From an uncultured Tateyamaria sp. (GTDB lineage Bacteria > Pseudomonadota > Alphaproteobacteria > Rhodobacterales > Rhodobacteraceae): 64,000 nt of DNA. Location: positions 248,001 to 312,000 of the forward strand of contig NZ_CANNDS010000004.1 of NCBI RefSeq assembly GCF_947503415.1, given 5' to 3'. The notes under the pieces were generated by a model. The model saw only the letters and a list, made by a program, of their open reading frames with translations. It was not told the DNA's origin and did not search any database. Below, piece by piece: positions 39,271 through 42,479 of the stretch (position 1 is its first letter; the number at the start of each line of letters is the position of its first letter). Made by a program: the position numbers and the translations under genes.

Positions 39271-40436
39271 TGTGGCGATCCATCGCCTCGAACGCACTGA
39301 CATTTCTGATCGTGGCCCTGTTTGTTCTGGGCGGATTAATCCTGTGGGGACGTGGCCAGTATGAAGGCCCCGGACCGCTGACCGATGCGATTTGCGTGCA
39401 AGTGGATCGCGGATCGAACTTTCGCCGTGTGAGTGCCGATCTGGAAGAGCAGGGCGCTGTGTCCTATGGCTGGATTTTTCGGACGGGTGCCGACTATTCA
39501 GGCAAAACCGGCGAGTTGAAGGCCGGGAGTTTCCTGGTCGAGCCGGGTGCGTCCATGGAAGAGATCGTGGATGCGGTGACCCGGGGCGGGGCCAGCACGT
39601 GCGGGACCGAAGTGGTCTATCGCGTCGGGGTCAACCGCTTGAGCGCGCAGGTCCGCGAGTTGGACCCGGCCACCAATCGTTTTGTGGAGCGGGCCGAGTT
39701 TCAGCCGGGTGAGGAAGAGACACCCGCCATCTATAGTGAAGTGCGTGAAGGACAGGACACGCGGTATCGCATCGCCCTGGCCGAGGGTGTGACCAGCTGG
39801 CAGGTGGTGAATGCCCTTCAGAACATGGACGTGCTGTCGGGTGAGGTGTCCGAGATCCCGCCCGAGGGTGCGCTTGCGCCGGACAGCTACGAAGTCCGCG
39901 AGGGGGATGACCGTGCCGGCATTCTTGCGCAGATGACCGAGCAGCAGGAGTTGTGGGTGTCGGCTGCGTGGGAGTCTCGCGATCCAGATCTGCCGCTGGA
40001 GAGCCCGGAGGAATTGCTGACACTGGCGTCCATCATCGAGAAAGAGACGGGGGTCGCCGAGGAGCGGCGTCAGGTGGCGTCTGTCTTTGTGAACCGGTTG
40101 AACCGGGGCATGCGCCTGCAGACCGACCCCACCGTCATCTATGGTGTCACGCGGGGGCAGGGTGTGCTGGGCCGTGGCCTGCGCCGGTCCGAGTTGCGGG
40201 CGGCGACGCCGTGGAACACATATGTCATTCAGGGACTGCCGCCGACGCCCATCGCGAACCCCGGGCGTGCAAGCCTGATGGCGGCGGCGCAACCGGATGA
40301 GACGCCGTATGTGTTCTTTGTGGCCGATGGGACGGGCGGGCACGCCTTTGCCGAGACATTGGACGAGCACAACCGGAATGTGGCGCGCTGGCGTGAGATT
40401 GAAGCGGAACGGGCGAACCAGTCGGACGGGGGATAG
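39270..40436 (+). CDS. mltG: Endolytic transglycosylase MltG
   Basis: A 388-residue protein with an N-terminal membrane anchor (about residues 7-27), a LysM-like domain, and the YceG/MltG catalytic domain with LTLASIIEKETGVAEERRQVASVFVNRL, where the Glu after IIEK is catalytic, and TDPTVIYGV and PIANPGRASLMAAA. It cuts nascent peptidoglycan strands in the periplasm to end their elongation. fabF-mltG coupling by overlapping start and stop resembles the fab-mltG linkage of many proteobacteria. Confidence 0.95.
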   Translation: MWRSIASNALTFLIVALFVLGGLILWGRGQYEGPGPLTDAICVQVDRGSNFRRVSADLEEQGAVSYGWIFRTGADYSGKTGELKAGSFLVEPGASMEEIVDAVTRGGASTCGTEVVYRVGVNRLSAQVRELDPATNRFVERAEFQPGEEETPAIYSEVREGQDTRYRIALAEGVTSWQVVNALQNMDVLSGEVSEIPPEGALAPDSYEVREGDDRAGILAQMTEQQELWVSAAWESRDPDLPLESPEELLTLASIIEKETGVAEERRQVASVFVNRLNRGMRLQTDPTVIYGVTRGQGVLGRGLRRSELRAATPWNTYVIQGLPPTPIANPGRASLMAAAQPDETPYVFFVADGTGGHAFAETLDEHNRNVARWREIEAERANQSDGG

Positions 40437-40448
40437 GCCGGGAAAGGT

Positions 40449-40466
40449 GGCGGGCTGAAGCCCGCC
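40449..40466 (+). terminator. Hairpin after mltG, possible terminator
   Basis: A perfect 7-bp stem GGCGGGC/GCCCGCC with a TGAA tetraloop starts 12 bp after the mltG stop. It lacks a T-tract, so termination would be factor-dependent or weak; it may protect the mltG 3-prime end. Confidence 0.45.
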
Positions 40467-40495
40467 CTACGGGCTGTTTGAACCGTTTTGATATT

Positions 40496-40511
40496 TGTCC
40501 CCGCGGGGACA
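40496..40511. repeat. 16-bp perfect palindrome TGTCCCCGCGGGGACA, copy 2
   Basis: Identical to the copies at 37139 and 63601. It lies 60 bp after mltG, between that gene and the gene transfer agent control region. Confidence 0.85.
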
Positions 40512-40552
40512 GACAACCGTTGTTGTGGGGGATCAAGAGGTTACGTGTTGCG

Positions 40553-40567
40553 TTAACCACATTTTAA
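40553..40567 (+). promoter_or_regulatory. Canonical CtrA box (TTAA-N7-TTAA) upstream of the GTA operon
   Basis: TTAA (40553-40556), seven bases CCACATT, TTAA (40564-40567) exactly match the full CtrA recognition motif. It lies about 100 bp upstream of the predicted transcription start. CtrA is a known requirement for GTA production in Rhodobacter capsulatus and related species. A second inverted repeat GATTA/TAATC (40574-40592) and a palindrome ACCGTACGGT (40595-40604) follow and are further candidate regulator sites, for example for a GafA-like activator. Confidence 0.65.
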
Positions 40568-40632
40568 CCTCTCGATTAGGAATTTGTTAATCGTACCGTA
40601 CGGTTAGCGGGCGCAGCTCATCCGGAATTCGC

Positions 40633-40661
40633 TTGACTCTGCGAACGGTCACACGTATAAC
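40633..40661 (+). promoter_or_regulatory. Sigma-70-type promoter of the gene transfer agent operon
   Basis: TTGACT (40633-40638) and TATAAC (40656-40661) are separated by exactly 17 bp, close to the ideal housekeeping promoter. The start of transcription would be near 40668. A short inverted repeat CTTG-TGT-CAAG (40661-40671) overlaps the start. The g1 start codon is 100 bp further on, with an intrinsic terminator between. Confidence 0.7.
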
Positions 40662-40686
40662 TTGTGTCAAGCTAGAAGAAGTGGGC

Positions 40687-40728
40687 AAGCGGCCGTCGGA
40701 GTGATCCGAGGTCGCTTTTCTGTTTCTC
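40687..40728 (+). terminator. Intrinsic terminator in the leader of the GTA operon
   Basis: AAGCG pairs with CGCTT, CC with GG and TCGGA with TCCGA around a GTGA tetraloop, giving about 13 bp with one G-T pair and one bulged G; the hairpin is followed by TTTTCTGTTTCTC. It lies roughly 20-60 nt after the predicted start and 40 bp before g1. No gene lies upstream on this strand for 250 bp, so it would act on the GTA transcript itself as an attenuator. Confidence 0.7.
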
Positions 40729-40767
40729 TCGTGCGGAGACAATCCAACGCATGAGAGGTCATATCAC

Positions 40768-41112
40768 ATGACACTGATTACCCCGGAGGCTGAAGAAGCC
40801 CGCAGCGAGGAGCTTGTCTCTTCGATGCAGGCTTCGCTCGCTGAATTGCGACAGACAATCCAAGCCTTCAAAGAAAAGGCGGATGCCGGGGAGGAATTCA
40901 AGGAAACCGAGGTGAACGGCCAGCTGACATCCTTGTCAAAGCTGGTGGTGAGCCTGCAAGGAGCGGAGCACAAGCTTGACACGTTCAGACAAGCCCGCAG
41001 TGGCATTGCCCAAAACGGATATGCTTTCGACCTTAGCATTGCCCGAGCTCAGGTTCGGTGCGCGCTTGGTCGCTTGCGCGACTGTGGACGCACAGGATCG
41101 GTTTCTGAGTGA
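40768..41112 (+). CDS. GTA g1, small terminase (TerS-like DNA-packaging protein)
   Basis: A 114-residue, mostly helical protein. Residues 10-75 form a coiled coil (SSMQASLAELRQTIQAFKEKADAG), as in RcGTA g1, which has the oligomer-forming core of a TerS but lacks a specific DNA-binding part, in line with random packaging of host DNA. The tail overlaps the start of the large terminase gene by 92 bp when the latter begins at 41021. Confidence 0.82.
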   Translation: MTLITPEAEEARSEELVSSMQASLAELRQTIQAFKEKADAGEEFKETEVNGQLTSLSKLVVSLQGAEHKLDTFRQARSGIAQNGYAFDLSIARAQVRCALGRLRDCGRTGSVSE

Positions 41113-42394
41113 GTTGGAGGCGGAGGGCGCTTTGGGCGCCCTCCCTTTTTTGTTCGAATTCTGGGCCATGGAGCACCAGCTGCCACCTGAGGGGGATTGG
41201 CGGACCTGGGTGATCATGGGCGGGCGCGGTGCGGGCAAGACCCGGGCCGGGGCGGAGTGGGTGCGCAGCATGGTCGAAGGTGACATGCCGCTGGACAAGG
41301 GCAAGGCCAGGCGCGTTGCATTGGTGGGCGAGACCATCGAGCAGGTGCGGGAGGTCATGGTGTTTGGCGAAAGCGGTTTGCTGGCCTGTTCGCCATCGGA
41401 CCGGCGGCCCAAGTTTCATGCAGGCCGCAAGATGCTGGAATGGCCCAACGGGGCTGTTGCCACAATTCACACGGCCTTTGACCCCGAAGGATTGCGGGGG
41501 CCGCAATTTGACTGTGCATGGGTGGACGAGCTGGCCAAGTGGAAACGCGGGGCCGAGACCTGGGACATGCTGCAATTTGCGTTGCGGCTGGGCGATGATC
41601 CACGCTGTTGCGTGACGACGACGCCGCGCAATGTCGAGGTTTTGAAAGAGCTTTTGGAGCAGTCATCGACTGTTGTCACGCATGCGCCAACCGAGGCCAA
41701 TGCGGCCAATCTGGCGTCGTCGTTCCTTGCCGAGGTCAAGCGCCGCTATGCTGGGACGCGGTTGGGCCGGCAGGAGCTGGAAGGCATTCTGCTGAGTGAT
41801 GCCGAGGGCGCGCTGTGGACCACAGCGATGCTGGATGCTGTGCGCCGCAAGCGCAAGCCGAAGCTTGATCGCGTGGTGGTGGGGCTGGACCCTGCGGTGT
41901 CGTCGGGCAAAGCGTCGGACGCGTGTGGGATTATCGTGGCTGGCGTGTCGATGGACGGCCCGCCGCAGGATTGGCGCGCCCATGTGATTGCCGATTGCAC
42001 CGTGCAGGGACTGGGACCTGCAGGCTGGGCGCAGGCGGCCATTGATGCGATGAAGAAATACGATGCTGACCGCCTCGTGGCCGAGGTCAATCAGGGCGGG
42101 CAGCTTGTCAGCGAGGTGATCCGGCAGGTCGACCCGCTGGTGTCTTTGAAGACTGTGCACGCCTCTCGGGGCAAGGTGGCGCGATCGGAGCCGGTGGCGG
42201 CCTTGTACGAGCAGGACCGTGTGACACATGCGTTGGAACTGGGGCCTTTGGAGGATCAGATGACGCGGATGACCCGCGCTGGCTATGAGGGACAGGGGTC
42301 GCCGGACCGGGTCGATGCTTTGGTCTGGGCGTTGCACGAGTTGATGATCGAGCCCGCTGGCCAGTACCAGAGGCCCGGTGTGCGCCGGTTGTGA
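41021..42394 (+). CDS. GTA g2, large terminase subunit (packaging ATPase-nuclease)
   Basis: A 457-residue terminase. Walker A is GGRGAGKTRAGAEW (about residues 67-80), Walker B is FDCAWVDELAKW, and the C-terminal RNase H-like nuclease begins at RVVVGLDPAVSSGKASDACGI with acidic residues in VAEVNQGGQL. It drives headful packaging of random chromosomal fragments into GTA capsids. The start is uncertain: a TTG at 40976 and a later Met at 41168 are alternatives; 41021 gives the family N-terminus LALPELRFGARL. Confidence 0.9.
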   Translation: MLSTLALPELRFGARLVACATVDAQDRFLSELEAEGALGALPFLFEFWAMEHQLPPEGDWRTWVIMGGRGAGKTRAGAEWVRSMVEGDMPLDKGKARRVALVGETIEQVREVMVFGESGLLACSPSDRRPKFHAGRKMLEWPNGAVATIHTAFDPEGLRGPQFDCAWVDELAKWKRGAETWDMLQFALRLGDDPRCCVTTTPRNVEVLKELLEQSSTVVTHAPTEANAANLASSFLAEVKRRYAGTRLGRQELEGILLSDAEGALWTTAMLDAVRRKRKPKLDRVVVGLDPAVSSGKASDACGIIVAGVSMDGPPQDWRAHVIADCTVQGLGPAGWAQAAIDAMKKYDADRLVAEVNQGGQLVSEVIRQVDPLVSLKTVHASRGKVARSEPVAALYEQDRVTHALELGPLEDQMTRMTRAGYEGQGSPDRVDALVWALHELMIEPAGQYQRPGVRRL

Positions 42395-42453
42395 GCGGCC
42401 CTGCGGGGCGAGTTTATTTGGCAAGATGAAGCAGGGGATGACCCTTGCGGTGA

Positions 42454-42479
42454 GGCGGTTCTTTTTGAGCCGCCTTTTT
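42454..42479 (+). terminator. Terminator-like hairpin between GTA g2 and g3
   Basis: GGCGGTTC (42454-42461) pairs with GAGCCGCC (42467-42474, one T-G pair) around a T-rich 5-nt loop and is followed by TTTTTC. It lies 60 bp after the g2 stop and 50 bp before g3, in the only sizeable gap of the early part of the operon. Confidence 0.75.

Follow-up and report, generated by a model that had tools for sequence, protein, structure and literature searches.

In lambdoid late operons, the promoter pR' is followed by the terminator tR', and the arrangement works together with Q. For the GTA of Caulobacter (CcGTA; GafY, GafZ and IHF), a comparison of GafZ with Q was made by Tran and Le (PMC11150451). 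In that system, GafZ lets some polymerase past terGTA, which consists of three 150-bp repeats downstream of gtaT, and also past E. coli rrnB T1, and in the absence of GafZ a reporter carrying the leader but devoid of terGTA dropped about fourfold (PMC11150451). An element located between the −35 and −10 elements, GCGCCCG-CTGGCGC, is required for GafZ binding. The promoter itself is far from consensus (AATCAT, TATCTTT), and a near-consensus −35 element makes it independent of GafYZ (PMC11150451). GafY and GafZ, two separate proteins, resemble the N- and C-terminal parts of GafA (PMC11150451).

In Rhodobacter, the C-terminal part of GafA binds an RcGTA fragment comprising the −10 element, the −35 element and the transcription start (Sherlock and Fogg 2022, PMC9638019), and binding of GafA to the −10 and start region was also reported (Fogg 2019, PMC6363796). 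GafA acts through omega, which the RcGTA work explains by polymerase recruitment (PMC9638019). Two readings of Rhodobacter GafA are therefore available: recruitment through omega, which has experimental support, and antitermination, which Tran and Le (2024) suggest as a possibility (PMC11150451). The literature searched, which was mainly open-licence, yielded no report in which GafA had been tested for antitermination. At issue is what makes a bacterium sacrifice itself to spread its DNA by way of GTA particles.

With regard to the leader itself, a promoter (−129 to −100) and a putative RNA stem-loop (−74 to −51) were described for orfg1 of R. capsulatus (Mercer and Lang 2014, PMC3999984). Deletion of the stem-loop had little effect, since the activity of a plasmid g2-lacZ reporter remained very similar in the stationary-phase wild type SB1003, and most RcGTA is made by about 3% of cells (PMC3999984). 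In the available part of that report, the stem-loop is neither interpreted as a terminator nor compared across species. The earlier note on the DNA studied here knew of no described leader terminator in a GTA; this has to be amended inasmuch as the R. capsulatus stem-loop was described in 2014, although it is not called a terminator in the available part. As far as their accessible text goes, none of the mainly open-licence papers searched gives that name to a Rhodobacteraceae leader hairpin.

Layout of the GTA leader

The window, i.e., the whole stretch of 64,000 nucleotides that was analysed, is Tateyamaria-like (Rhodobacteraceae), its closest named terminase loci being those of Tateyamaria (90–91%). 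Its GTA cluster encodes terminase, portal, capsid, connector and a GTA TIM-barrel and, as in Caulobacter, belongs to an alphaproteobacterial GTA. The following features are considered here:

40553–40567, plus strand: CtrA-type box TTAA-N7-TTAA (TTAACCACATTTTAA) upstream of the promoter, from the sequence
40633–40638, plus strand: −35 element TTGACT, from the sequence and the leaders of relatives
40641–40650, plus strand: conserved spacer element GCGAACGGTC with a CGnnCG core, candidate GafA (ZBE-like) binding site by analogy with the GafZ element
40656–40661, plus strand: −10 element TATAAC, from the sequence and the leaders of relatives
40678–40684, plus strand: 5' arm of outer helix O, GAAGTGG, pairing with 40720–40726, from fold and covariation
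40687–40717, plus strand: T1, putative leader terminator hairpin, from fold, covariation and terminator scans
40716–40725, plus strand: T-tract of T1 (TTTTCTGTTT), with conserved T at 40716–40719
40720–40726, plus strand: 3' arm of outer helix O, formable in read-through RNA only, from fold and covariation
40726–40757, plus strand: S, possible hairpin pairing the Shine-Dalgarno region (GAGAGG, 40753–40758), from the fold
40768–41112, plus strand: g1, first gene of the cluster, from its ORF and protein and from homologues or ORFs in the corresponding position ahead of terminase
41117–41152, plus strand: T2, terminator-like hairpin within the beginning of g2, with CTTTTTTG behind it, from fold and relatives
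41168–42394, plus strand: g2, terminase large subunit, from PF03237, PF17289 and translation
42452–42476, plus strand: T3, terminator-like hairpin in the g2–g3 gap (−17.3 kcal/mol, z −6.47)

Judging from its −10 element, the promoter TTGACT-N17-TATAAC (40633–40661) is expected to start transcription near 40668. T1 (AAGCGGCC-G-TCGGA-GTGA-TCCGA-GGTCGCTT, 40687–40717) would then begin about 20 nt into the RNA, and it is followed by a T-rich tail that ends about 43 bp upstream of the ATG of g1 at 40768. The box, the promoter and the hairpin with its T-tract are all located where the earlier note had put them, and its description of a hairpin beginning about 20 nt after the expected start and about 40 bp before g1 was right. 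A local promoter scan, which requires a T at the end of the −10 element, did not list the window promoter. A conserved GCTAGAAG at 40671–40678, right behind the expected start, resembles a −10 element and could be a promoter-proximal pause site. Further upstream, at 40448–40476, there is a palindromic stretch (GGCGGGCTGAAGCCCGCC) of a dispersed repeat, and this part of the query has matches at six other sites of the own genome.

The fold of T1 (−20.0 kcal/mol, z −4.65) was equalled by none of 200 shuffles, and its T-tract (40716–40725) is broken after four Ts. Local pattern counts yielded four terminator-like sites in 2 kb, compared with 2.0 ± 1.4 in shuffles; as such counts are not decisive, the evidence beyond chance comes from the comparison with relatives. 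The window shares with RcGTA a sigma-70 promoter with a 17-nt spacer. Its leader promoter (−135 to −107) and hairpin (−81 to −51) lie at distances close to those of R. capsulatus, and on this basis the R. capsulatus stem-loop is taken as the same element as T1, a match judged by geometry, not by alignment.

The CtrA-type box is real and confined to a minority of genera. Of 148 genera, 28 have TTAA-N7-TTAA ahead of g1 (0–1 in shuffles). Among the 80 leaders, from the window and named loci, 16 contain it, eight of them from Tateyamaria (the window, L009–L014 and L023). On the RcGTA promoter, binding of CtrA was undetected by EMSA, as reported by Fogg (2019, PMC6363796). Of the control by CtrA that the earlier note took as established, the box itself stands, and the claim is weakened by its restricted occurrence and by the EMSA result.

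Conservation of the hairpin and of its promoter

The distribution of the leader was determined with a covariance model, R1, at a cut-off of E ≤ 0.01 in 295 genomes of the family, about one per genus. The leader was detected in 189 of them, a reach that is partly by construction, since the model was built from leaders of this same family. It gave a single hit in 188 of the 189 genomes and hence marks GTA promoters. Terminase was found in 238 of the 295 genomes. Among the matches listed for both, the leader is located 394–481 nt upstream of terminase and on the same strand in 96 of 97 genomes; in the 97th, leader and terminase are on separate contigs. In the own genome, R1 yielded one clear hit (86 bits), followed by one of 18.7 bits (E 3.2), and a wider regulon of leader copies was rejected on this ground.

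A terminase-anchored scan was performed independently of R1 on the regions upstream of terminase in the best 150 of 238 genomes, a choice somewhat biased to nearer kin. The hallmark of an intrinsic terminator, a G+C-rich stem with a T-run directly after it, is present in T1 and in 135 of these 150 leaders (dG ≤ −8 with at least 5 T of 8; median dG −21.8), compared with 22–31 in five rounds of dinucleotide shuffles. At dG ≤ −12, 128 of the 150 leaders were retained, compared with 6–10 in shuffles. The coding DNA of g1 gave only 7 and 3 hits at the two thresholds and the reverse strand 20 and 5, and an artefact of coding sequence or of palindromes was rejected on these grounds. In 15 of the 150 leaders no terminator was found, one of them (G080) being cut by a contig end, and in 7 the terminator was weak. 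Taken from the sequence, T1 is probably an intrinsic terminator of the GTA leader that would terminate transcription in the cell.

Outside the family the picture was different. In a draw from the whole class, R1 matched 4 of 289 genomes, three of them Rhodobacteraceae, so that a single match among at most 285 genomes lies outside the family, at about chance level (E 0.0049). In other orders, terminator-like sites were found up to 910 nt upstream of terminase in 7 of the 28 loci given, compared with 2 of 28 after shuffling; these loci come from 36 non-family genomes with a terminase match. Based on both results, the leader terminator looks largely specific to Rhodobacteraceae. A search of a phage collection produced no useful match to the leader (19 bases in two records of a single phage, E about 5), and the relatives of the terminase in that collection are all less than 60% identical. 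Term searches in the main text of two papers on new bacterial RNA motifs did not bring up the element either, one of these papers having passages on Rhodobacterales motifs elsewhere.

Covariation was examined in 80 leaders, that of the window and those of 79 named terminase loci (of 80; the truncated L080 was left out). In line with the pairing across Rhodobacterales GTA leaders on which the earlier note had made its proposal depend, the hairpin covaries in relatives: 84.4% of cells are paired in the consensus structure (77.6 in shuffles), two-sided changes occur in 24 of 29 pairs (17.2 in shuffles, with 1 of 500 as high), and the covariation score is 0.300, compared with 0.201 in shuffles (0 of 500 as high) and 0.070–0.114 in slid controls, all these values being biased in favour of the structure in that it came from the same rows. 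The 61-row alignment of the model showed two-sided changes in 19 of 26 pairs. An independent alignment of 148 genera, in which pairs were taken from the window and genera without the hairpin were kept, gave 84.1% pairing for the T1 stem, above all of 200 shuffles (mean 76.8, maximum 79.1).

Since these shuffles leave relatedness in place, three pairs (two of T1 and one of the outer helix) were also followed on a tree of 72 named-locus rows. Of 3, 7 and 4 independent pairs, 1.9, 3.3 and 2.0 agree and 0, 0 and 0.5 go the opposite way; the pairs thus go the right way, each being too few for significance. The T-tract is conserved as well, with T at 40716, 40717, 40718 and 40719 in 72, 71, 75 and 68 of the 80 leaders. 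As position 40718 is unpaired in the model structure, conservation of its T is unexplained by pairing. We consider the conserved, covarying T1 element itself secure.

The promoter was analysed in 116 leaders with T1, defined by a hairpin of dG ≤ −12 that ends 420–480 nt before the terminase start (from the best 150 of 238 genomes). With ties decided in favour of TTGAC and a 17-nt spacer, TTGAC was found in 109 and the 17-nt spacer in 110 of the 116. A promoter score of at least 8 of 12 was reached in 108, compared with 28 of 116 after shuffling of the 100 bases upstream. From the −10 element to the hairpin, the distance is 24–26 nt in 78 of the 108 promoters. This nearly fixed distance supports the reading of the earlier note, and, as that note had it, the plan resembles that of Q-type loading.

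No conservation is expected in the spacer of an ordinary sigma-70 promoter. Here, the CGnnCG core of the spacer is near-invariant in the promoters of the family, with C, G, C and G in 96, 103, 103 and 94 of the 105 promoters with a 17-nt spacer, and these bases carried no score when the promoters were located. In the alignment of 148 rows, unfiltered for T1 and with gaps included, the corresponding numbers were 109, 118, 121 and 111. The own genome holds two matches of the promoter pattern, namely the GTA promoter and C1:1536316-1536340 (L243:1501-1525). The 1100 bases before the latter show no resemblance to a GTA locus, and by eye they resemble a leuB-like gene on the opposite strand.

A candidate gate at elongation

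A candidate regulator is encoded in the own genome by a single DUF6456 (PF20057) gene, located on another contig. With the start codon that we chose, the protein comprises an HTH at 19–55 (HTH_23, 25.8 bits, compared with a cut-off of 24.6) and DUF6456 at 223–360, an architecture that, as read from the sequence, would be as expected of GafA. This differs from the situation in Caulobacter, where GafY and GafZ divide these parts between two proteins. PF20057 was detected in 269 of the 295 family genomes. Among the 20 listed of the 26 genomes devoid of it, three (G133, G179 and G215) have the leader. Of 14 control genomes only that of Caulobacter vibrioides gave a PF20057 hit, which may be GafZ.

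The comparison with Caulobacter can be extended to the operon. In both systems a conserved element lies between the −35 and −10 elements, binding in the window being predicted, and the CGnnCG core resembles, by eye, the left half of the Caulobacter element (GCGCCCG). The Caulobacter terGTA follows the first gene, which is where the putative T2 sits in the window, although T2 is a compact hairpin and not a set of long repeats (PMC11150451). Two further differences are that the available part of the Caulobacter description includes no leader terminator, in contrast to T1 in the window, and that the Caulobacter start codon is at +251 (PMC11150451). Lambdoid late operons likewise have a terminator close behind the promoter, and the window shares with them a candidate loading element in the promoter; this likeness implies no Q homologue. 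By analogy, the leader-terminator plan may be a variant on the known GafZ-type control of GTAs.

In the mechanism that we propose, polymerase without GafA, whether starting here or arriving from upstream, would be released at T1 after about 50–60 nt. GafA, whose DUF6456 gene lies elsewhere in the genome, would bind the CGnnCG spacer element and aid initiation. It would then stay with the polymerase or modify it, allowing run-through of T1 and subsequently of T2, where g2 begins; T3 before g3 would also be passed by GafA-modified polymerase in this lineage. The operon would thus be controlled by a two-step gate, at initiation and at elongation. Given that the promoters of the family score at least 8 of 12 in 108 of 116 leaders, whereas that of Caulobacter is far from consensus, a block placed after the start would presumably be useful.

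T2, which the earlier note missed together with the near-kin T3 while describing T1, is a 10-bp hairpin (−21.2 kcal/mol, z −2.56) that was matched by 4 of 200 shuffles. It lies right after g1 and within coding sequence (EGALGALPFLFEFWA), the conserved reading frame of g2 beginning upstream of 41168. Among the best 150 of 238 genomes, a scan for sites of this type found them in 63 genera (15 in one shuffle), and at dG ≤ −12 in 59 (2 in one shuffle). Compared codon by codon in 142 genera, the T2 stem is nearly all-or-none, with a perfect 8-bp stem in 53, 7 bp in 1 and at most 3 contiguous pairs in 66, and genera that have the stem show more T in the tail than those lacking it (5.7 vs. 4.0 of 8). 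Two of nine T2 pairs covaried above shuffles (90 vs. a mean of 54 and a maximum of 70; 79 vs. 49 and 64), the remaining seven not exceeding simple shuffles. For the first of the two exceeding pairs, C against A/G on the tree of 72 named-locus rows gave 4 independent pairs, 1.2 the same way and 1.0 opposite, and A-T against G-C gave one independent pair, 0.9 the same way. As the tree offered no support, covariation of T2 was dropped as an argument. We consider T2 likely to be a real terminator-like element, less secure than T1 on account of the seven pairs at shuffle level and the lack of support from the tree.

In the g2–g3 gap, a terminator-like site was found in 31 of 76 readable loci, compared with 11 after shuffling, and the sequence core of T3 is identical in the window and L011–L014. 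With T1 counted at dG ≤ −12 and in place, and T2 as a stem of at least 7 bp (74 of 150 genera, counted without a control), the best 150 of 238 genomes comprise 54 with T1 and T2, 62 with T1 alone, 20 with T2 alone and 14 with neither. The last group counts against the mechanism proposed here.

Taken together, we favour GafA-dependent initiation followed by read-through of the leader terminators, much as GafZ acts past terGTA, with a probability of roughly 0.6. It is held at this level because the null deletion in R. capsulatus fits a promoter that hardly fires without GafA together with a GafA-modified polymerase that ignores T1, but fits a T1 of no weight in that assay as well. Against the mechanism, most RcGTA comes from about 3% of cells, so that deletion of a strong T1 would have been noticed if the promoter in front of it were active in every cell; the null result fits full read-through in producers with the promoter off elsewhere, or a hairpin without effect. 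Of the antitermination switch and the control at elongation that the earlier note had put forward, the former has a published precedent in GafZ of Caulobacter (PMC11150451) and would apply here by extension, whereas a strict gate at T1 is weakened by the small effect of the R. capsulatus deletion on the reporter. T1 at its nearly fixed distance, the spacer element and the early terminator-like sites, for all of which exact positions are given, make antitermination by GafA directly testable in R. capsulatus and other laboratory strains.

A more far-reaching version of this mechanism is doubtful. Here, most cells would show weak firing of the promoter, and T1 would convert these events into a short leader RNA; loading of GafA at the spacer would make single polymerases terminator-proof, and the rare, all-or-none choice of GTA production and lysis would be set largely at elongation. 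The R. capsulatus reporter result speaks against firing in most cells of that species, but such firing may still occur in the organism of the window. If this version were true, the DUF6456 proteins of GTA-bearing Alphaproteobacteria would form a family of processive antiterminators, and a role for the leader RNA itself would be conceivable.

Possible other roles for the leader hairpin

T1 could also be a plain insulator that keeps leak from upstream, or weak uninduced firing, out of the lethal GTA genes, while GafA acts on initiation only and induced polymerase outruns a partial terminator. The null deletion in the R. capsulatus plasmid reporter fits this explanation, as does the end of a yceG gene of the same direction upstream in 60 of 80 loci, the window included. 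We nevertheless regard it as unlikely, given that T1 is placed by the promoter and not by yceG, from which it is separated by anything from 80 to 1815 nt (50 loci with both). Moreover, T1, found in 68 of the 80 loci overall, is present in 18 of the 20 in which the search upstream detected no yceG end. A terminator placed ahead of the promoter would give insulation and leave the operon's own transcripts free. T1 as the terminator of yceG was rejected on account of the varying distance, of its presence in these 18 loci, and of a further terminator between the yceG end and the promoter in 17 of the 60 loci.

A role after transcription would assign T1 and helix O to a stable 5' hairpin that protects the GTA mRNA, and S to a limitation of g1 translation through pairing of the Shine-Dalgarno region. 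Helix O, which pairs bases beyond the T-tract and hence forms only after read-through, covaries, being 81.7% paired in 148 genera (shuffles 76.9, maximum 78.3). Part of the selection thus acts on read-through RNA, which is unexplained by antitermination alone and suggests a further role of the leader in the full-length mRNA, possibly in its stability. Further, the stretch behind T1 folds better than shuffles (mean z −1.37, 115 genera), and S has a 10-bp outer stem in the window (−17.4 kcal/mol, z −4.53) and some two-sided changes across species in the 80-leader and 61-row alignments. In the independent alignment, however, pairing of S did not rise above shuffles (67.8%; mean 66.7, maximum 68.0), and S was rejected as a conserved switch and kept as a possible hairpin only. 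As the T-tract is also conserved at a position that is unpaired in the model, we find it improbable that this role accounts for the leader.

That T1 is a conventional attenuator for another protein, RNA or ligand, or a relic of an ancestral phage with little present effect, is very unlikely: the R. capsulatus deletion without effect and the leaders in which the terminator is weak or was not found would agree with it, whereas an Rfam 15 search of 40400–41200 gave no match up to E = 1, the consensus folds, read without a systematic search of alternatives, show no competing antiterminator helix, and compensatory changes maintain T1 across much of the family.
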